Below the pieces are notes generated by a model. The model was not told where the DNA came from and ran no database searches. It saw only the letters and a list, made by a program, of their open reading frames with translations. The translations under genes were made by a program, and so were the position numbers. From positions 248,001 to 312,000 of the forward strand of contig NZ_JAPKNI010000004.1 of NCBI RefSeq assembly GCF_026343955.1: a DNA stretch of 64,000 nt. Direction: 5' to 3'. Positions 3,976-43,759 of the stretch are shown piece by piece (position 1 is the stretch's first letter; each line of letters opens with the position of its first letter). The stretch comes from Kaistia defluvii. GTDB lineage: Bacteria; Pseudomonadota; Alphaproteobacteria; Rhizobiales; Kaistiaceae.

Positions 3976-6687
3976 TTAGAACGCGATGCTCAGGCGTCCC
4001 TGGACCGAGTTATCCGCCGCGTCGCTGGCCAGTTGTCCGGCATAGAACAGGCCGAGCTTGGCGCCCGCCGCCACGTCGACATCGAAGCCTGCCTTGAGCA
4101 GCAGGGCATCCTGCGCGATCGGCGCCCCAGTCACCTGGAAGGCATCGCCACCGGCGAAGGCCAGCGTGCTTACCGGCGTCACGTCGCCCCAGGCATGCTG
4201 CCACGCAGCGGCGCCCTGCAGCGTCACGCCGACATTGCCGACCACGAGCTTGTGATCGGCGCGTAGGCCGAGCGTGCCATAGGTGACGCTCTGGTTGGCG
4301 CCATCGGCGCTCAGCGCTGCCGAACCGCCCGTCTCGCTATAACCATCCGTCGAGAGATGGACGTAGGCGAGACCGGCGAACGGCTCGATCGTCGCCGCGG
4401 CGCTGACCGCGATGTCGTAGCCGACTTCACCGAAGATCTGCGTCGTACCGGCGGAATAGTCAGCCTTCTCCTGTTCGAAGAAGCCCGGCAGCGACACATT
4501 TCGGCTCGTGTCGATCTCGTTCCAGGTGTAGCTGGCGCCGAGGCGGACATTGACGTCCGAAACCTTGCCGCCGGCATAGGCGAGCAGGTGGTAGTTGTCG
4601 CTGTCGCCCGAGGACGAGCGGTCATCGAGATCGAAGCTGGTGCGGCTGTAGCCGGCGGCCGCGCCGATCAGCCAGTCCTTGCCGACGACGCGGTCATAAC
4701 CGACGATGATGCCGCCGGTCGAACGATCGAGCTTGGCGACATTGGCATCGCCGTCGCTATGGCCCCACGAGCCGAAGCCCTGCGACCAGAACGTGTTGGG
4801 ATCGGCAACCGGAGCGGATGCGACGCCGGGGAACGGAGCCATGCTGCGCTTGTCGCCCTCGGCATAGCCGGAGGCGAGGCTGACGGACGGCGCGGCCGAC
4901 CCCCTGGACGGGTAATGCAGGCGGCCAAGCACGGCGTCGCGCAGGAAGAAGCTGTCATTCAGCAGGACGCCGGAAGCGCTCGCATGAATCTCGCCGGAGA
5001 TCGCGTCGAAGACGGCTGGACCGTCGGCCATGGTGAGGAACTGGACGGCGTCAAACAGCGAGCCCGATCCAACGGATTCAATACCGTTCGCGGCGGCGAC
5101 CTGGTTCGATGTCGTCGCGCCGGACGCGAAGTTCACGTCCTGCGTGAGGGTCAGGTAGATCGAATGGCTGTCATCGTCGAGCGACAAGGCTCCGGAAATG
5201 AAGGCGAAGTCCTCGATGACGCTGCCGTTGCCGAAGCTCGCATTGCCGCCGGCTGTGGCGACCGTGTAGTCATGGTCCAGAAGGTAGCCGCTGACCGGCA
5301 CGACGCGGACCGCGCCGTCCAGGACGAGATCGCCTGTCGCAGCTATCTTGCCAGCCTGACCTGAATCGTCGATGCCGGTTACGAACTGGCCCTCCGTGCC
5401 GAGTGCAAAATCTCCCGTGACGTTCAGCGTGCTGCCGGCATAGACGGCGATCGTCGTCGGACCCGCGAAATTCTTGCTGCCGGTCAGCGTGACGTCGCCT
5501 TGCGACACGCCGAGCACCTCAATCGTTTCCGACAGGTTGCCAATCGTCAGCGTACCGGCGCCGTACTTTTCGAGACCGCCATTGCCGGCGAGACTACCGG
5601 ACCAGGTGGCGTCGAAACCATTGGTGTCGATGAAGGACAGCGTGCCGTCGGTCAGAGTGGCATCGACGGACGTGTTGAGCGCGCTCGTGACCTTGATCGC
5701 GCCGCCGCCGAGGTTGAAATTATAGGTGCCCTGCCCGCTGACGCGTCGGCCCTTCAGGCTGGCTCCGCCAATCTCCAGCGTGCCACCATCGAGATTGTAG
5801 GTTCCCGTTCCGGTGCCCGCGAGATAGAGCGACGACGTTGCGTCGACGCGCAGGATACCGCCGTTCTGGTTGATCTCGCCGGTAGCGGTGGCCGCGCCAT
5901 TGTCGGTCTCGCGACCAAACCCAATGGCCAGATAGCCGCTATCCCGGATCGAGACAGTGCCGCCTTCGATGTTGAGAGTGCCGCTGGTGCCGCCCGTCTG
6001 AGTGGTGTTGCGTCCGAGCGTCATGCGGCCATCACTCACCTCCAGCAAGCCGTCGCTGATCGTGTAGGTGCCCTGGCCGCCCTGATTGCCGATGTGAACA
6101 GCCGCGCAGCGATCTTCGTTGCCGCAGGTGGGAGAAATGGTAACCGTGCCGCCGGTCTGCATCGCCGTGCCGGTACCGCCGTAGTAGCCAACGGACAGGC
6201 CGACGCCGAACGAAGCGGATGCACCCTCCCCGATCGTCATCGCGCCATCGCTGGACGCGCCCGAACCGACCGCCAGGTACTCGATGGCGCTATCGCCGGT
6301 GAAATCCAGCGTGCCGCCAGCGATATGGGTCTCACCGCCGTTGATGGTGGCGCCATCGAGCGTCAGCGTGCCGGCGCCCATCTTGGTGAAAGTTCCATAG
6401 GAGCTATCCCAGGCGACGCCTTCGAGTTCGATCGTATCCGAGAACGTGACGCTGCCGGCATTGTTCAAGACCAGCGGCGCCGCCGCCGAAACGTCGATGA
6501 CGCCCGTGACAACAAGGTCATCCAGTTCGGCCTGCGTCTCGACAATGATCGGCGACGGATCGGCCGAGGCTCGTCCAGCGCCGCCCAGCATCGTCGCTAT
6601 GGCGACCAACGACACGCCCGCCGCCCAGCGCGCGCGTGCGAAATCCGGCGCCGAACGAGTCGCCCGGCCTGCTTTGAATGATGACAT
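3976..6687 (-). CDS. Type Va autotransporter with beta-helix-type passenger
   Basis: A predicted 902-residue surface protein that exports its own passenger through an outer-membrane barrel. The signal peptide has a basic n-region, a hydrophobic VSLVAIATML core and a likely ASA|D cleavage at 42/43. Residues about 60-450 are rich in Gly-Thr/Ser repeats such as GGTLDFTG, GAGTLTLDG and GTLTIGNLS, the autotransporter-associated beta-strand pattern. A SGEIHAS linker precedes the barrel, which runs from about 630 to a terminal Phe. I chose ATG 6687 rather than upstream GTG/ATG codons because the signal peptide starts there. The passenger function is unknown. The barrel is clearly related to the second autotransporter at 59.7-61.6 kb. 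Confidence 0.88.
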   Translation of the reverse strand: MSSFKAGRATRSAPDFARARWAAGVSLVAIATMLGGAGRASADPSPIIVETQAELDDLVVTGVIDVSAAAPLVLNNAGSVTFSDTIELEGVAWDSSYGTFTKMGAGTLTLDGATINGGETHIAGGTLDFTGDSAIEYLAVGSGASSDGAMTIGEGASASFGVGLSVGYYGGTGTAMQTGGTVTISPTCGNEDRCAAVHIGNQGGQGTYTISDGLLEVSDGRMTLGRNTTQTGGTSGTLNIEGGTVSIRDSGYLAIGFGRETDNGAATATGEINQNGGILRVDATSSLYLAGTGTGTYNLDGGTLEIGGASLKGRRVSGQGTYNFNLGGGAIKVTSALNTSVDATLTDGTLSFIDTNGFDATWSGSLAGNGGLEKYGAGTLTIGNLSETIEVLGVSQGDVTLTGSKNFAGPTTIAVYAGSTLNVTGDFALGTEGQFVTGIDDSGQAGKIAATGDLVLDGAVRVVPVSGYLLDHDYTVATAGGNASFGNGSVIEDFAFISGALSLDDDSHSIYLTLTQDVNFASGATTSNQVAAANGIESVGSGSLFDAVQFLTMADGPAVFDAISGEIHASASGVLLNDSFFLRDAVLGRLHYPSRGSAAPSVSLASGYAEGDKRSMAPFPGVASAPVADPNTFWSQGFGSWGHSDGDANVAKLDRSTGGIIVGYDRVVGKDWLIGAAAGYSRTSFDLDDRSSSGDSDNYHLLAYAGGKVSDVNVRLGASYTWNEIDTSRNVSLPGFFEQEKADYSAGTTQIFGEVGYDIAVSAAATIEPFAGLAYVHLSTDGYSETGGSAALSADGANQSVTYGTLGLRADHKLVVGNVGVTLQGAAAWQHAWGDVTPVSTLAFAGGDAFQVTGAPIAQDALLLKAGFDVDVAAGAKLGLFYAGQLASDAADNSVQGRLSIAF

Positions 6688-7245
6688 GATGCCCCAATTA
6701 CCCTCGCCCGAAGCCGAAATTGCCAGTGGAAGCGCCGCTCCCGCCATGGCTGTCCATCTTCGTGCCCCCACGGAAATGATCCGCCGAGGATATCAACCCA
6801 CCAGCGGGGTCGCAATAATGGTTTCAAAGTAATTCAAGTTTAGAACGACTCGAAGTTGTTGGTATAGCTGACTCTGCCTCTCCCACCCGGATAACAGATC
6901 GAACCCCAAACCAAAACAACATGCAATTTTTATTGAGAAACATTGCCACATATATTCAAATAACGTCTACGACAAGCAATAAGTTAAGAGAAGAAATCCA
7001 GTAGAATCATGGTCGAACCAGGCGGATTATCGTAATTCAGCAAGATACAGCGCCCCCCTTATCATCAATCGGCGCTAGAAATATAAGCGAACCTCGACCA
7101 AAGCTTGTGCTGTCAAGTTGAGGGCCATGCGACCGCGCAAGCGGATGGGAAAGGCCGAACCCGGGGCGCCAGGGTCCACGGCGGACAGGCCTGGCCGCCG
7201 TGACAAAAGAACGGTCTCTCACCGCCCCGGGCGTCAAACCTGCGT
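6688..7245. other. AT-rich intergenic region, autotransporter promoter side
   Basis: Both flanking genes are on the minus strand, so this region lies downstream of the AsmA-like gene and upstream of the autotransporter. Bases about 6830-7110 are markedly AT-rich compared with the rest of the window. I found no convincing conserved gene, tRNA or strong promoter pair. The composition suggests the autotransporter regulatory region, or a site for a nucleoid protein. Confidence 0.45.
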
Positions 7246-33721: not shown

Positions 33722-34564
33722 ATGGCCAAGAAATATGTACGCATGGCAATTGCATACGATTTCGATGGAACGCTCGCTCCCGGCAATATGCAAGAACACC
33801 AGTTCCTTCCAGACATTGGCATGAAGCCGGCTGCATTCTGGTCGGAGGTCAAGCGCCTCACGCGAGAGCATCAAGCCGACGAAGTGCTCGTTTATATGAA
33901 CTTGATGTTGAAAAAAGCGGCTTCAGCGGATGTCCCGGTGCGCCGTGAGAACTTCAAGACCCATGGAGAGCAGATCAAGCTTTTCGATGGAGTTATAGAC
34001 TGGTTCGATAGAATTACCGAATACGCGCGAGCGAGAGAAATCCGCGTTGATCACTTTTTGATTTCTTCCGGAAATGCAGAGATATTTGCAGGCACGCCAA
34101 TTGTAGCAAAGTTTGCACAAGTCTATGCATCCAAGTTTATATTTAATCAAAACGGGGTCGCCGATTGGCCCGCCTTGGCCATAAATTATACTACAAAAAC
34201 GCAATATCTATTTAGGATAAACAAAGACTCCCATGATCTGAGTGATAACTCAGAAGTAAACCGGTTTGTCGCCAAGCAAGATAGACCTGTCCCCTTCGAG
34301 AACATGATCTTTATCGGGGATGGCGCAACGGACATTCCCTGCTTTCGCTTAGTAAAGGAACAGGGAGGTTTGTCGATCGCCGTTTATAAGCCACACACCG
34401 GCGGGGCCAAAGGGAAAGCTGATCGATATAAAAATGACGGGCGAGTCCATTGTGTTGCTCCGGCAGTTTACGATGACGGAAGCAGAATAGATCGAATTGT
34501 GAAAGCGCAGATCGATCTTATTGCGACGAGGTCAGCCGCTCAAGTGATCCGTGCTGACGACTAG
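33722..34564 (+). CDS. HAD-superfamily phosphatase, AT-rich, probably acquired
   Basis: A 280-residue soluble protein with the full HAD signature: DFDGTLAPGN (motif I, the first Asp being the nucleophile), LISSGN (motif II) and FIGDGATDIPCF (motif IV). A C1-type helical cap of about 80 residues follows motif I, so it resembles the phosphoserine phosphatase-like branch. The substrate is unknown. Its codons use many A/T third positions (ATA, AAA, TAT), unlike the GC-rich genes on both sides, a sign of recent transfer. The neighbours are a terminator on the left and a toxin-antitoxin pair on the right. Met8 (33743) is an alternative start. Confidence 0.82.
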   Translation: MAKKYVRMAIAYDFDGTLAPGNMQEHQFLPDIGMKPAAFWSEVKRLTREHQADEVLVYMNLMLKKAASADVPVRRENFKTHGEQIKLFDGVIDWFDRITEYARAREIRVDHFLISSGNAEIFAGTPIVAKFAQVYASKFIFNQNGVADWPALAINYTTKTQYLFRINKDSHDLSDNSEVNRFVAKQDRPVPFENMIFIGDGATDIPCFRLVKEQGGLSIAVYKPHTGGAKGKADRYKNDGRVHCVAPAVYDDGSRIDRIVKAQIDLIATRSAAQVIRADD

Positions 34565-34670
34565 TCCTCGGGGATGCTGGAATGGTGGTTCGGTGACCTC
34601 GCCACAAGCTACACCCTTGCCGCCCCGGCCATATGCACCTATCTTCTTGGCATATCGCCAGGAGGCGCTC

Positions 34671-35099
34671 ATGGCTCATACGCAAGCACTCGATATTGTC
34701 GGCGGGGAAACCGCGCTCGGGCTTTCGATCCGGAGCGGGCGGGATCTGATCGCCGCCGTGCGACAAGGATTGCCGGTGCGGGCGGTCGAGCATGTGCTCG
34801 ATAGCGGCCGGATGACGCTGGCCGAGCTCGACCTCGTCGTGCTGCCGCGAAAAACGCTGTCGCACCGTCGTAAGATCGGCACACTCACGGCCGACCAGTC
34901 CGACCGGCTGATGCGCGCCGCGCGCGTGATCGCCGCGGCCGAGGATACGTTTGGCAGCCAGCAGAAGGCCGCGACCTGGCTGCGCCGGCCGACGACCGCG
35001 CTGGGCGACGAGACGCCCCTGTCGCTGCTCGACACGTCGGAAGGCGCGCTGCAGGTCGAAACCCTGCTCGGCCGGATCAGCCACGGCATCGCCGCCTGA
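34671..35099 (+). CDS. parS: Xre/MbcA/ParS-type antitoxin
   Basis: A 142-residue antitoxin. The N-terminal half has a short helix-turn-helix-like region. The C-terminal half, from about 85 (AAEDTFGSQQKAATWLRRPTTALGD), is the toxin-binding MbcA/ParS domain, with the family signature for the W-LRRP and PLSLLDT segments. ATG 34671 has a strong AGGAGG at 34660-34665. It is followed by a RES-domain toxin. In such systems the antitoxin represses its own operon; ATATGC/GCATAT halves at 34631-34655 are a possible operator. Confidence 0.9.
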   Translation: MAHTQALDIVGGETALGLSIRSGRDLIAAVRQGLPVRAVEHVLDSGRMTLAELDLVVLPRKTLSHRRKIGTLTADQSDRLMRAARVIAAAEDTFGSQQKAATWLRRPTTALGDETPLSLLDTSEGALQVETLLGRISHGIAA

Positions 35100-35205: not shown

Positions 35206-35643
35206 TTGATCGCCTGGCGCATCTCCCGCGCGCCCTTCGCCGATCTTTCCGGCACCGGGGCGCGGCTCTATGGGGGGCGCTGGAATTCGCCCGGCCGGGC
35301 GATGATCTACGCGGCCGAAGCCGCGGCGCTGGCCGTGCTCGAGGTCCGCGTCCATCTCGACCTGACGCCCGATCTGCTGCCGGACGACTATGTTTTGACA
35401 GGCATCGCCCTCGACGGCCTCGCCGTCGAGACGCTCGACACCCTGCCGGAGGCGCCGCAGGCCCTTGGCGATGCGTGGCTCGCCGAAGCGCGCACGCCGG
35501 TGCTGCGCGTGCCGTCCTTCATCGTGCCGGAGAGCTTCAACCTGCTGGTGAACCCGGCCCATCCGGCCGGGGCGGCGCTTTCGATTGCGAACCAGCGCCC
35601 GTTCCGCTTCGACGAACGGCTCTGGCTGCCCGCCCGTCTCTAG
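35206..35643 (+). CDS. parT: RES-domain NAD-degrading toxin (ParT type)
   Basis: A 145-residue toxin of the RES family, whose members deplete or transfer NAD+ and stop growth. The N-terminus IAWRISRAPFADLSGTGARLYGGRWNSPG is complete, with the conserved Arg in GGRW. The Glu is in AAEAAALAVLE and the Ser near VPSFIVPES, giving the R-E-S triad. The only suitable start is TTG 35206, with no strong ribosome-binding site, 106 bases after the antitoxin stop. Most RES toxins overlap or closely follow their antitoxin, so low translation may keep the toxin scarce. Confidence 0.88.
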   Translation: MIAWRISRAPFADLSGTGARLYGGRWNSPGRAMIYAAEAAALAVLEVRVHLDLTPDLLPDDYVLTGIALDGLAVETLDTLPEAPQALGDAWLAEARTPVLRVPSFIVPESFNLLVNPAHPAGAALSIANQRPFRFDERLWLPARL

Positions 35644-39589: not shown

Positions 39590-39708
39590 GGATGCCGCTT
39601 GCGCGCGAGATTACGTTGCGCGAACCTCCGGTTGCCCATGAGAAAGACGCTGTGCCGCCGGATAGCCCGGCGCATCGAAGCGAAGGGCCAACCAGAGGAT
39701 GAGTTCCC

Positions 39709-39876
39709 ATGCGCACCCTGCTTGCCGTTCTTGCCATCAGCGCCGGCCTGGCCAGCCTGTCGGGTTGCACCAGCAATCCCAACGCCCCCGCCATCAAGGC
39801 GATGGACGACCCGGTCAATGCCTGCGGTCCCGGCGGATCCAGCAACGAGAACGACTGCTCAAGCAACCGCCGCTGA
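39709..39876 (+). CDS. Tiny lipoprotein A (55 residues), first of a tandem pair
   Basis: A 55-residue lipoprotein. The signal peptide is MRTLLAVLAISAGLASLSGC with lipobox LSGC, lipidated Cys20. The 36-residue mature part contains SNPNAPAIKAMDDPVNACGPGG and ends in an Asn/Ser/Arg tail with a further Cys. AGAGGA at 39694-39699 provides a good ribosome-binding site. Asp rather than a consensus outer-membrane retention signal does not follow Cys20 (it is Thr), so outer-membrane sorting is expected. A paralogue follows at 40092. Gene finders may miss it because of its size. The function is unknown. Confidence 0.75.
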   Translation: MRTLLAVLAISAGLASLSGCTSNPNAPAIKAMDDPVNACGPGGSSNENDCSSNRR

Positions 39877-40038
39877 TCGGTCCCTTCTGCCAGGCAGTCG
39901 GATACCCCGCCTGCCTGGCTCGACCTGGGGTCGCCGGCCACGGACTGCGGATATGGCTTGGGCTTTGCCCACAGGCTGGTCGCGACGGTCTGCCCGCCTA
40001 TATGGAGAAGAGGATCGCCGGAGCCCCATCACCGTTGA

Positions 40039-40066
40039 AGCGGCAACGAGGCTCAACGTTGCCGCT
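40039..40066. repeat. Perfect 10-bp inverted repeat between the tiny lipoprotein genes
   Basis: AGCGGCAACG (40039-40048) is mirrored by CGTTGCCGCT (40057-40066) with an 8-base loop, 26 bases before the second lipoprotein gene. It could be a terminator lacking a U-tract, a leader hairpin or an operator. Confidence 0.65.
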
Positions 40067-40091
40067 CGAACCGCACAGGTGAAGCAAGCTC

Positions 40092-40256
40092 ATGCGCTCT
40101 CTCCTCCTGGCTTTCGCTGTCCTTTCGGGAAGTGCCTGCCTTCAGGGCTGCACGACCGATCCGAACTCCCCGGCCCTCAAGGCCATGGAGCCGGTCAATG
40201 CCTGCGGCCCGGGCGGCACCTCTGACATCAATGCTTGCTCGCGCAGCCGCGGCTGA
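40092..40256 (+). CDS. Tiny lipoprotein B (54 residues), second of a tandem pair
   Basis: A 54-residue lipoprotein with signal MRSLLLAFAVLSGSACLQGC (lipobox LQGC, Cys20). The mature part reads TTDPNSPALKAMEPVNACGPGG and ends in SDINACSRSRG. It aligns with lipoprotein A over the whole mature region: CT-x2-PN-x-PA-x-KAM, PVNACGPGG and a final Cys before a basic tail are shared. The two mature-part cysteines are conserved in both, suggesting one disulfide. Two diverged copies with the same core argue strongly that both are real genes. The function is unknown. Confidence 0.75.
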   Translation: MRSLLLAFAVLSGSACLQGCTTDPNSPALKAMEPVNACGPGGTSDINACSRSRG

Positions 40257-40497
40257 CAGCGCGGGGGGTTCCGATGGCGCTCCGGGTGGCGGTTGCTGCG
40301 GCCAACCGGGCGGCACCGGGATGCCGGAAAGCGTTCAGCGGATTCGGGCGGGTGCAATCCCCCGTTTCGACACGGGTGACGTTCATCACACGCTGGGCCG
40401 CCGTTCTTGCTCTCGCCATGAAGTGCGGCCAGAATGCCCGTCGGACCTTGCTTCGGCCTGTCGCCGAGCCCTCTCGATTCGTTCCTTGGAGGACATA

Positions 40498-41640
40498 ATG
40501 AACCTGACAGTTTCCGGCTTCGCGGTGCGCGGCCTTACGCTCGCATCCGCGCTGATGCTGTCGACGGCGGCCTTCGCAGCACCCGACGCCCAGAAGATCG
40601 CAGACGCCTTCGTCGCCGCCGCCCAGGCCCGCGGCGAGGCCAAGGTCACGTTCGATTCGGCCAAGGCCGATGGCGACAACGTCACCCTCAGCAATGTGAA
40701 GATGACCGCCAAGCAGGGCGGCGACGTGACCATTCCGGCCATTGTCATCGAAAGCCCGATCGAGCGCACCAGCGGCGGCTTCACGGCAGCCAGCATCTCG
40801 TTCGACGCCGGCAAGATCGTCGACGAGCAGACGACCATCAGCTGGGACAAGGGCCTGTTCAAGGACGCCATCGTTCCCGCGCCGACCGAGATCAACTCGA
40901 AGGCCAAGATCACGCCGTTCTCGAACATGGAAGTATCGACCATCAGCGTCGTTTCCACCGAGACCCCCGCGCCGATCACCGTCGATGGTATCAACGTCTC
41001 GCTCGGCGACGTGATCGAGGGCGCGCCGAATGACGGCCAGCTCCGCGTCAGCGGTGTCACCATTCCCGGCGAAGTCCTGAAGTCGGACGAGCAGACCAAG
41101 GATTGGGTCGAACAGCTGGGCTACGACAAGCTCAACTTCGACGTCGGCATCGACGGCGCCTATGACAATTCCAAGCAGAGCTTTACCTTCCGCTCCATCA
41201 GCCTCGACGGCAGGGATGTCGGCAAGCTGGTGATCACCGGCACGTTCGGCGGCCTGCCGCGCGACAAGCTGCAGGATCCGGACAAGCTCTCGGAACTCGC
41301 CGCCACCGCCACCGTCGACAACGCCAAGATCCGCTTCGACAATGCCGGCATTGTCGGCCGCGTGATCGCGATGCAGGCGAAGCAGATGGGCGCTACCCCG
41401 GAGCAGTTCGTCGACCAGATCAGCGGCGCGCTGCCGCTGCTGCTTTCGGTCGTTGGCAACCAGGGATTCCAGGATCGCATCGCCATGGCGGCGACCGCCT
41501 TCCTCAAGGACCCGCAGTCGCTGACCATCACCGCCGAGCCTGGCAATCCGGTTCCGATCATGCAGATCTTCGGCGCCGCTTCGACCGCGCCGCAGACGCT
41601 GCCGGACGTTCTGGCCGTCGACATCCAGGCCAACCAGTAA
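40498..41640 (+). CDS. Secreted protein of unknown function, paralogue A
   Basis: A 380-residue protein with a Sec signal peptide (LTLASALMLSTAAFA, cleavage about residue 27), so it is periplasmic or outer-membrane associated. The mature chain alternates short hydrophobic beta-strand-like stretches (NVTLSNVKMT, GGFTAASISFDAGKIV). The last 140 residues, from about LGYDKLNFDVGID, align with the end of the next gene, including MQAKQMGATPEQFVDQISGALP, SLTITAEPGNPVP and LPDVLAVDIQ. TTGGAGGA gives a strong ribosome-binding site. I do not recognise a named family. Confidence 0.8.
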   Translation: MNLTVSGFAVRGLTLASALMLSTAAFAAPDAQKIADAFVAAAQARGEAKVTFDSAKADGDNVTLSNVKMTAKQGGDVTIPAIVIESPIERTSGGFTAASISFDAGKIVDEQTTISWDKGLFKDAIVPAPTEINSKAKITPFSNMEVSTISVVSTETPAPITVDGINVSLGDVIEGAPNDGQLRVSGVTIPGEVLKSDEQTKDWVEQLGYDKLNFDVGIDGAYDNSKQSFTFRSISLDGRDVGKLVITGTFGGLPRDKLQDPDKLSELAATATVDNAKIRFDNAGIVGRVIAMQAKQMGATPEQFVDQISGALPLLLSVVGNQGFQDRIAMAATAFLKDPQSLTITAEPGNPVPIMQIFGAASTAPQTLPDVLAVDIQANQ

Positions 41641-41708: not shown

Positions 41709-41788
41709 CTTGTCCCGGATCGGGAAAACAGACTTTAATGGTCGATCACTCGCCGAGCCGGATCGACCCGATGCCAATGGAGCACCCT

Positions 41789-43759
41789 ATGAGCCGTTCG
41801 TCGCTACGTGTCCGTCTTCTCGCCGCCGGTGTCAGCGCCGTGGCCATGACGGCCTCGTTGCCGGCGCTTGCCGAGGAGCCGATCGAGACGGCGATCCGCC
41901 ACTGGATCTCGACGCTCGACGCCTCGCCAAACTGGGTCGCCGGCTTTTCCGAGCTTTCCTATGACGAGGGCCAGCGCACCGCGACGCTGCGCAACCTGAC
42001 CATCCGCAGCGAGACGCTGGCGACCAAGCTGGAAATCAGCTTCGGCAACATCGCCATCACCAATTACGCCGAGACTGCCGATGGCGGCTTCAAGGCGAGC
42101 GAGATCACCGCCGACAGCGGCAAGCTGGTGGTGGGCGACCTCGGCAGCTCGAAGCTCACCGACATCCGCGTCGACAATCTCGCGGTCCCGAGCTTCGTCA
42201 ATTACGTCTTCGACCAGAACCGCATCTTTACCTCGCTCGCCAAGGGCTGGGGCATCATTGCCAAGGCTTCCGTCGACAGCGTGCGTGTCGGCCGAATCGA
42301 GGCGACCGAGACCAGCGAGGGCCAGACGTCCGCCGCCAGCTTCGGCTCCTACGAGCTGAAGGGGATGGCGAACGGCGTCATCGACCAGGTGACGATCGGC
42401 CCCGTCTCGCAGGAAATGCCTTCGCCCGACGGCCTGCTGAAATTCACGATCGACAAGATCGAAGCGCGCAAATACGACCTCGACGCGATCTCGGCCGTGT
42501 TCGATCCCGAGCGCTATGTCGGCGGTGTCGGCGACGGCAAGTGGCGCACCGCGCTCGGCCTCGAAATCTATCGCAACTTCTCGATCGAGATGCCCGGCGC
42601 GTCGATCCGCATGGGCTCGTTCGAGATGGAGAATCTTCGCCTCCGCCAGCCCCCGAAGAGCTTCACCAGCTTCCTGGACACCATGCTGGCGACCGCCGAC
42701 CGGCCGGAAGAAGAACTGGCGCAGATGGTCCGCGAGCATCTCGCCGGGCTGTTCAGCTTCGCCGGCGTCGGCACGGTGCGCTTCACCGATCTGGATGTGA
42801 CCGCGCCCGAGGTCGAGCGCTTCCATCTCGGCGATTTCCACATCAATGATTTCTCGAGCGACGGCATCGGCGAAATCGGCGTGCGCGATCTGGATGTCGC
42901 CATCCAGGACAAGGGTTCGCTTGGCGCCGAGCGGCTCGCGGTCGGGGGCTTCAAGTTCCCGCCGCCCGATCTGCTGGTCTCGTCGATCTTCACCAGCCTG
43001 GGCGGCGGCGAATTCGACCCCACGCCAGTGATGCCGACCATGGGATTCGCCGAAGCCGTGGGCGTCGACGTCACGCAGGGCGGCAAGAAGCTCGGCGCGC
43101 TCGACCGCGCGCGCATCGATCTCGGCGCCTATATCGGCCCGGTGCCGACCAGCATCACCAGCGACGTCCGCGGGCTCGATCTCGACCTGTCGCAGATCGA
43201 CGACCGCCGCGCCCGCGAGATGATCAAGGGCCTCGGCTATGACCGGCTGGTTGCCGATTACGGCTTCCGCCTCTCCTGGCGCGAAGCGGATGAGAGCGTC
43301 ATCCTCGACGGCTTCAAGCTCGCCATCCAGGACCTGGCGACGATGAACGTCGACGCCACGCTGACCGGGCTGACGCGCCAGGCGATCGAGAATCCGAAGA
43401 CGCTGGAGGGAGCCATGGCTTCCCTGCTGTTCACGCGTGGCAAGCTGTCGATCGAGGACAAGTCGATCGTCGAGCGCGCCGTCGGCATGCAGGCGAAGAA
43501 GATGAATGTCGATCCGGACAAGTTCCGCCAACAGATCGCCGGCGCGTTGCCGCTGTTCCTGATGGTGCTGAAGAACCCTGGCTTCCAGGCCAAGCTGGCG
43601 CCGGCGCTGCAGGCTTTCATCAAGGCGCCAGGCACGATGACCATCACCGCCGAGCCGACGACGCCGGTGCCGGTGATGACGCTGATCGAAACGGCGGACA
43701 GCGCACCGCAAAAGCTCCCCGATCTCCTGCAGATCGAGATCAAGACCAACACCCCGTAA
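41789..43759 (+). CDS. Secreted protein of unknown function, paralogue B
   Basis: A 656-residue protein with a Sec signal peptide (AAGVSAVAMTASLPALA). The start ATG 41789 is supported by GGAG six bases upstream; in-frame ATGs at 41771 and 41777 are less likely. It seems built of repeated blocks of the same fold: ELSYDEGQRTATLRNLTI, SVRVGRIEATE, FEMENLRLRQPP, DFHINDFSSDGIGEI. The C-terminal region from LGYDRLVADYGF matches paralogue A (MQAKKMNVDPDKFRQQIAGALP, TMTITAEPTTPVP, LPDLLQIEIK). This suggests a duplicated, extended version of one envelope protein. No named family is recognised. Confidence 0.82.
   Translation: MSRSSLRVRLLAAGVSAVAMTASLPALAEEPIETAIRHWISTLDASPNWVAGFSELSYDEGQRTATLRNLTIRSETLATKLEISFGNIAITNYAETADGGFKASEITADSGKLVVGDLGSSKLTDIRVDNLAVPSFVNYVFDQNRIFTSLAKGWGIIAKASVDSVRVGRIEATETSEGQTSAASFGSYELKGMANGVIDQVTIGPVSQEMPSPDGLLKFTIDKIEARKYDLDAISAVFDPERYVGGVGDGKWRTALGLEIYRNFSIEMPGASIRMGSFEMENLRLRQPPKSFTSFLDTMLATADRPEEELAQMVREHLAGLFSFAGVGTVRFTDLDVTAPEVERFHLGDFHINDFSSDGIGEIGVRDLDVAIQDKGSLGAERLAVGGFKFPPPDLLVSSIFTSLGGGEFDPTPVMPTMGFAEAVGVDVTQGGKKLGALDRARIDLGAYIGPVPTSITSDVRGLDLDLSQIDDRRAREMIKGLGYDRLVADYGFRLSWREADESVILDGFKLAIQDLATMNVDATLTGLTRQAIENPKTLEGAMASLLFTRGKLSIEDKSIVERAVGMQAKKMNVDPDKFRQQIAGALPLFLMVLKNPGFQAKLAPALQAFIKAPGTMTITAEPTTPVPVMTLIETADSAPQKLPDLLQIEIKTNTP

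Follow-up and report, generated by a model that had tools for sequence, protein, structure and literature searches.

In the 64,000 nucleotides of Kaistia defluvii DNA considered here (positions 248,001 to 312,000 of NZ_JAPKNI010000004.1, assembly GCF_026343955.1; hereafter the window, which is part of contig C16 in a genome of 4.9 Mb) two very short open reading frames follow one another, and both look like lipoprotein genes. Annotation often overlooks lipoproteins of small size. The locus raises the question of whether these frames are genes, how far their kin extend and what such proteins may do in the bacterial envelope. The earlier note had described two frames with lipoboxes lying 215 bases apart, which proved to be exact:

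39709–39876, + strand: gene 1, encoding a 55-residue lipoprotein with lipobox LSG/C20, core PVNAC39GPGG and C50; MRTLLAVLAISAGLASLSGCTSNPNAPAIKAMDDPVNACGPGGSSNENDCSSNRR
40092–40256, + strand: gene 2, encoding a 54-residue lipoprotein with lipobox LQG/C20, core PVNAC38GPGG and C49; MRSLLLAFAVLSGSACLQGCTTDPNSPALKAMEPVNACGPGGTSDINACSRSRG

The spacer occupies positions 39877–40091. Both translations also contain the elements ascribed to them in common, PN-x-PA-x-KAM, PVNACGPGG and a late cysteine, and the two proteins are 59–60% identical. When protein 1 was compared with its own whole genome, only two genes matched, itself (E 1.1e-31) and one other (E 1.3e-15); with the whole genome searched and at such identity the likeness of the pair is not due to chance. 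A third match (E 0.34) was discarded as noise.

Both frames are genes under purifying selection. They differ from each other at 53 bases, 25 of them in third positions, with dN 0.30 and dS 1.01 (dN/dS 0.30). Comparison with the nearest orthologues (genome G009, NG86 estimates) gave dN 0.025 and dS 0.13 for gene 1 and dN 0.051 and dS 0.50 for gene 2, so that dN/dS relative to the nearest species is 0.10–0.19. For orthologue-like pairs of neighbouring species the ratio obtained by NG86 was about 0.03–0.3, reaching 0.42 in one distant pair, and in these pairs the majority of changes fell in third positions. Relative to the nearest species identity amounts to 95% in gene 1 and 87% in gene 2, both without gaps, against 76% with five gap columns in the spacer and 81% in the stretch downstream. 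Conservation of the core had been attributed to selection, and the low dN together with the third-position excess confirmed this; on the two points singled out beforehand as decisive, 13 of the 14 Kaistia genomes contain homologues with an open frame, and synonymous change outweighs non-synonymous change. The idea that chance frames lie over a conserved RNA or opposite to other reading frames could be fed by a stem-loop found 5′ of gene 2 and by the long overlapping frames that occur in the GC-rich DNA of the window. However, the frame is kept in all 53 copies of the family described below, dN stays well below dS, spacers are less conserved than the frames and Rfam gave no match above threshold. 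These results have already refuted it, and its remaining chance is negligible.

The tandem paralogous family of small lipoproteins that the earlier note suspected is real, and the data obtained go beyond it, in that the pair is old, the family occupies several loci and is restricted to one genus. Whole-genome searches registered 53 copies, spread over 13 of the 14 Kaistia genomes at 2–8 per genome (8, 8, 6, 6, 4, 4, 4 and 3, with 2 in each of the other five); the carriers include Kaistia terrae, K. adipata, K. granuli and K. hirudinis, and the sole genome without a match (G006) is split into about 720 pieces and is 92% complete. The loci form two main syntenic clusters, accompanied by scattered copies. 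In the tree of 53 chains, which was built on 57 columns and left many forks unresolved, gene 1 of the window is joined by the first genes from five further Kaistia species (98/95) and gene 2 by its orthologue from G009 (99/97), the latter two falling inside a group that also takes in other species’ second genes, with support (86/90) under the starring limit. The genes of the window thus belong to different orthologous lines, which means that the duplication is old, having preceded these species, and that no homogenisation is under way. A 51-residue subfamily ending at the last cysteine (TTANPNSRVYQTMNNQPNACGPGFKRDIDAC and its variants) makes up a clear separate clade (100/99). Some records grouped in the genus bear names that look wrong: these are L069 and L072, from a metagenome bin labelled “Bosea sp.” (JAFKFV010000019.1 and JAFKFV010000018.1), and L073, labelled “Mesorhizobium sp. 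BR1-1-16” (NZ_JAIUIE010000001.1).

Beyond the genus, the full-length profile found only weak matches, mostly to signal peptides, in 14 genomes from other genera of the same bacterial family, where every candidate was scored, in about 386 other genomes sampled from the order and in 384 genomes sampled from the class. With the mature-chain profile three chance matches were obtained in the order sample, two of them in one genus, and none among 397 other genomes of the phylum sample. In the order, class and phylum samples 16–19 candidates per genome were scored, so that a very distant relative could be missed. Weak hits in G143, G111 and G346 were rejected as not being lipoproteins of the family’s build, and that in G047, the one examined among the three mature-chain matches of the order sample, as a chance match inside another protein, which by its look we take to be 5-aminolevulinate synthase. 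No relative was detected in phages, plasmids and viral contigs by profiles or, for viral contigs, by a regular-expression check with positive controls. Where other genera of the bacterial family have the DacC-like gene, the search for an ancestral copy next to it found none. So far, therefore, the family has been found only in Kaistia. Collections of known families gave the same picture. Mature chains had no significant match in Pfam-A, NCBIfam or PHROGs, full chains had none in PADLOC, and a PDB profile search returned only signal-peptide-level matches (E 1.5). Matches of full-length chains, the strongest being to a spanin model (E 2.3e-4), are due to the signal peptide. With this peptide removed none of the first three collections holds a matching family, which supports the supposition that the family may be undescribed. 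A literature search on Kaistia lipoproteins or small proteins yielded nothing relevant.

The build of the protein is uniform in its essentials. A charged N-terminus, a hydrophobic stretch and a lipobox cysteine are present in all 53 copies, 51 of which start with MR. Position −1 of the lipobox is always G, A or S, position −3 is L, V or I in 48 copies, and position +2 is T (29), S (13), Q (6), A (3) or G (2), but never D. According to the Escherichia coli rule for Lol sorting, Asp at +2 is the signal of inner-membrane retention; if this rule has force in Kaistia, as we assume, the constant absence of Asp from +2 points to the outer membrane, and the location proposed in the earlier note is to this extent supported. 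The mature chain (31–41 residues, 53 in one copy) has exactly three cysteines in every copy, the lipidation one and two others always 11 positions apart (N-x-C-G-x9-C, i.e. C-x10-C), with the short core N-x-C-G invariant in 53 of 53. The tether before the pair varies in length and the tail past the last cysteine varies freely, being reduced to zero in six copies. As the pair keeps a fixed distance amid changing surroundings, it probably forms a disulfide loop, and the epithet “disulfide-stabilised” gains indirect support from the same invariant spacing, in the form of a prediction. AlphaFold2 modelled the mature chain poorly (mean pLDDT 66.5, pTM 0.23, one helix of 7 residues), so that no fold backs a binding role.

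The chromosomal context was compared next to both clusters. In six genomes cluster I, to which the pair in the window belongs, lies between the gene of a pentapeptide-repeat protein and two tandem genes of exported proteins without Pfam match. In the window the latter (40498–41640 and 41768–43759, + strand) encode paralogous products of 380 and 663 residues, and they adjoin the lipoprotein pair in the six Kaistia genomes. In five other genomes cluster I is found near phasin-like and D-alanyl-D-alanine-carboxypeptidase-like genes, having on its other side a ribonucleotide-reductase-like gene or an Xre/RES pair, genes that in the window are located further upstream. Such a pair, an Xre/MbcA/ParS antitoxin with a RES-domain toxin (34551–35096 and 35206–35640, + strand), lies close to the lipoprotein cluster of several Kaistia species. 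Cluster II, with 1–4 copies, precedes acyltransferase, photolyase-like, cysteine-synthase-like and alanyl-tRNA-editing-like genes. Its copies are accompanied by two small conserved genes without Pfam match (about 97 and 119 residues; 6193–6486 and 6737–7096 in locus L041), which have counterparts in other cluster II loci. Part of these gene names are our own presumptive assignments, recognised from the sequence. Since the neighbourhoods contained nothing phage-like and nothing common to all loci, the context gives little functional help.

Three elements that may be related to expression were registered around the pair:

39889–39919, + strand: GC-rich inverted repeat (GCCAGGCAGTCGG / CCGCCTGCCTGGC), 13 bases past the stop of gene 1, with no T run and a weak RNA fold (z −1.5); possible transcript end
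39976–40003, + strand: promoter-like CTGGTC-N16-CTATAT upstream of gene 2
40034–40071, + strand: strong stem-loop (z −3.1) within what is presumed to be the 5′ leader of gene 2

No classical terminator was found at the repeat behind gene 1, and of the two hairpins only that before gene 2 is clearly more stable than shuffled sequences; its comparison, made with the nearest species only (L034), revealed a different GC-rich predicted fold there. Twelve family genes, gene 2 included, are preceded by the pattern CTGGYC-N16/17-CTATNT when a single mismatch is allowed, against about 0.08 expected from shuffled upstream regions, a contrast to be read in the knowledge that the pattern was chosen after reading these regions and that related ones were counted separately. 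No match to the boxes was found upstream of gene 1, and the 14 matches counted genome-wide equal the control, making the boxes no regulon marker. Being a post-hoc pattern in related upstream regions, with no genome-wide enrichment, they are best seen as an inherited housekeeping-type promoter. The general stress (EcfG) motif GGAAC-N-CGTT was not enriched upstream of family genes over shuffles, and a free motif search of the same regions was dominated by the end of the gene upstream of cluster II.

The explanation that we prefer, tentatively, is that these are small outer-membrane lipoproteins with a disulfide loop and a surface role like that of Atu8019. As established lipoprotein biology would have it, the precursor may be exported by Sec, acylated on the lipobox cysteine and cut by signal peptidase II, whereupon the Lol system would carry it to the outer membrane. 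Oxidation of the other two cysteines would close the CGPGG loop, which would be borne by a short flexible tether, the whole measuring about 35 residues. The product could be a constitutive surface lipoprotein of cells and outer-membrane vesicles, mediating or tuning surface contact as Atu8019 does (PMC7296081). This surface or vesicle role is a guess, the single most likely one, though we place it below even odds. The variable tails and the copy number of 2–8 fit a dosage or surface-variation role and not an essential one, while neighbour genes, which differ between the clusters, offer no consistent clue. A more far-reaching version, in which a family going back to the Kaistia stem and present in up to eight copies per genome relies on a fixed disulfide loop for specific contacts among cells or vesicles or with phages, as a new surface-recognition lipoprotein without relatives, seems doubtful.

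Other roles at the envelope have to be weighed against it. Small size, several copies and simple promoter boxes, as well as the proximity of cluster II to photolyase-like and cysteine-synthase-like genes, would suit structural fillers or envelope-stress lipoproteins, which on the inner side of the outer membrane would tune membrane or peptidoglycan spacing. The parallel with Lpp or OsmE is one of place and not of sequence. However, the chains have neither an alanine zipper nor an Lpp-type C-terminal Lys, and the lack of enrichment of the stress motif adds to the reasons for considering such a role unlikely. Quite unlikely is also the part of an envelope-assembly helper, i.e. a permanent partner of some outer-membrane complex, comparable to LptM with respect to LptD, that would make contact through the CGPGG loop. 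The invariance of the N-x-C-G core speaks for it, and three members graze the NCBIfam LptM model (NF047847), but these matches are insignificant (best E 0.35) and disappear with the signal peptide, mature chains giving none, and a family of 2–8 copies at differing loci of one genus is unlike an essential helper.

Phage-encoded T5 Llp acts on FhuA and Rtp45 on LptD, hindering phage adsorption (PMC12685063), and host-encoded blockers of this kind, disulfide lipoproteins binding the periplasmic face of an outer-membrane protein, would have the same build, a small acylated chain with a close cysteine pair, while a genome with several diverged copies would be equipped for several receptors. Yet no relative was met in phages, plasmids, viral contigs or PADLOC, the core is under purifying selection with no sign of an arms race, and the loci are stable and chromosomal, beside housekeeping-type genes; we hold this less probable still than assembly help. 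As for entericidin-like lytic lipopeptides or phage spanins, 7 of 18 members give a match to the Rz-like spanin PHROG 3198, at E 2.3e-4 in the best case, but the match of P0001 covers residues 1–32, mostly signal peptide, mature chains match no spanin model, Pfam gave no entericidin match and no lysis genes were seen beside the loci, so a lytic function is highly improbable.

Whatever the role, a known kind of protein is represented here by a new family restricted to one genus, and 53 sequences give a profile for naming and annotating it. Carried in several copies by nearly all genomes of one genus (13 of 14), under strong constraint there and yet not found in the neighbouring genera, it represents a clean case for the study of gene origin, as well as for asking which genus-specific envelope trait such genes serve.

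Among known systems LptM (YifL), whose conserved part is the N-terminal stretch binding LptD, resembles the family in being a very small lipoprotein of which a short mature segment is conserved; the Kaistia proteins differ in being genus-restricted and multi-copy and in not matching model NF047847. The superinfection-exclusion lipoproteins T5 Llp and Rtp45 are likewise small and act at the outer membrane, and Rtp45 has a Cys30–Cys38 disulfide (PMC12685063), but they are products of phage genes, whereas the Kaistia family is chromosomal, multi-copy and under purifying selection. They are the nearest by build with a disulfide, and probably not relatives, judging by the searches of phages and viral contigs for members of the family. 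Atu8019 of Agrobacterium, a widely conserved lipoprotein of the entericidin A/B family with 53 residues (32 in the mature form), resides in the outer membrane, is surface-exposed on cells and vesicles and favours vesicle attachment (PMC7296081). The Kaistia family differs from it by its confinement to one genus, its multiple copies and its CGPGG...C core. Since the Pfam entericidin model gave no match at E up to 1, either full-length or mature, and none was obtained in NCBIfam, the parallel is one of size, place and lineage only. Although apparently not a relative by the tests made, Atu8019, which shares with the family small size, a lipobox and the same order of Alphaproteobacteria, is its nearest counterpart by build and lineage.
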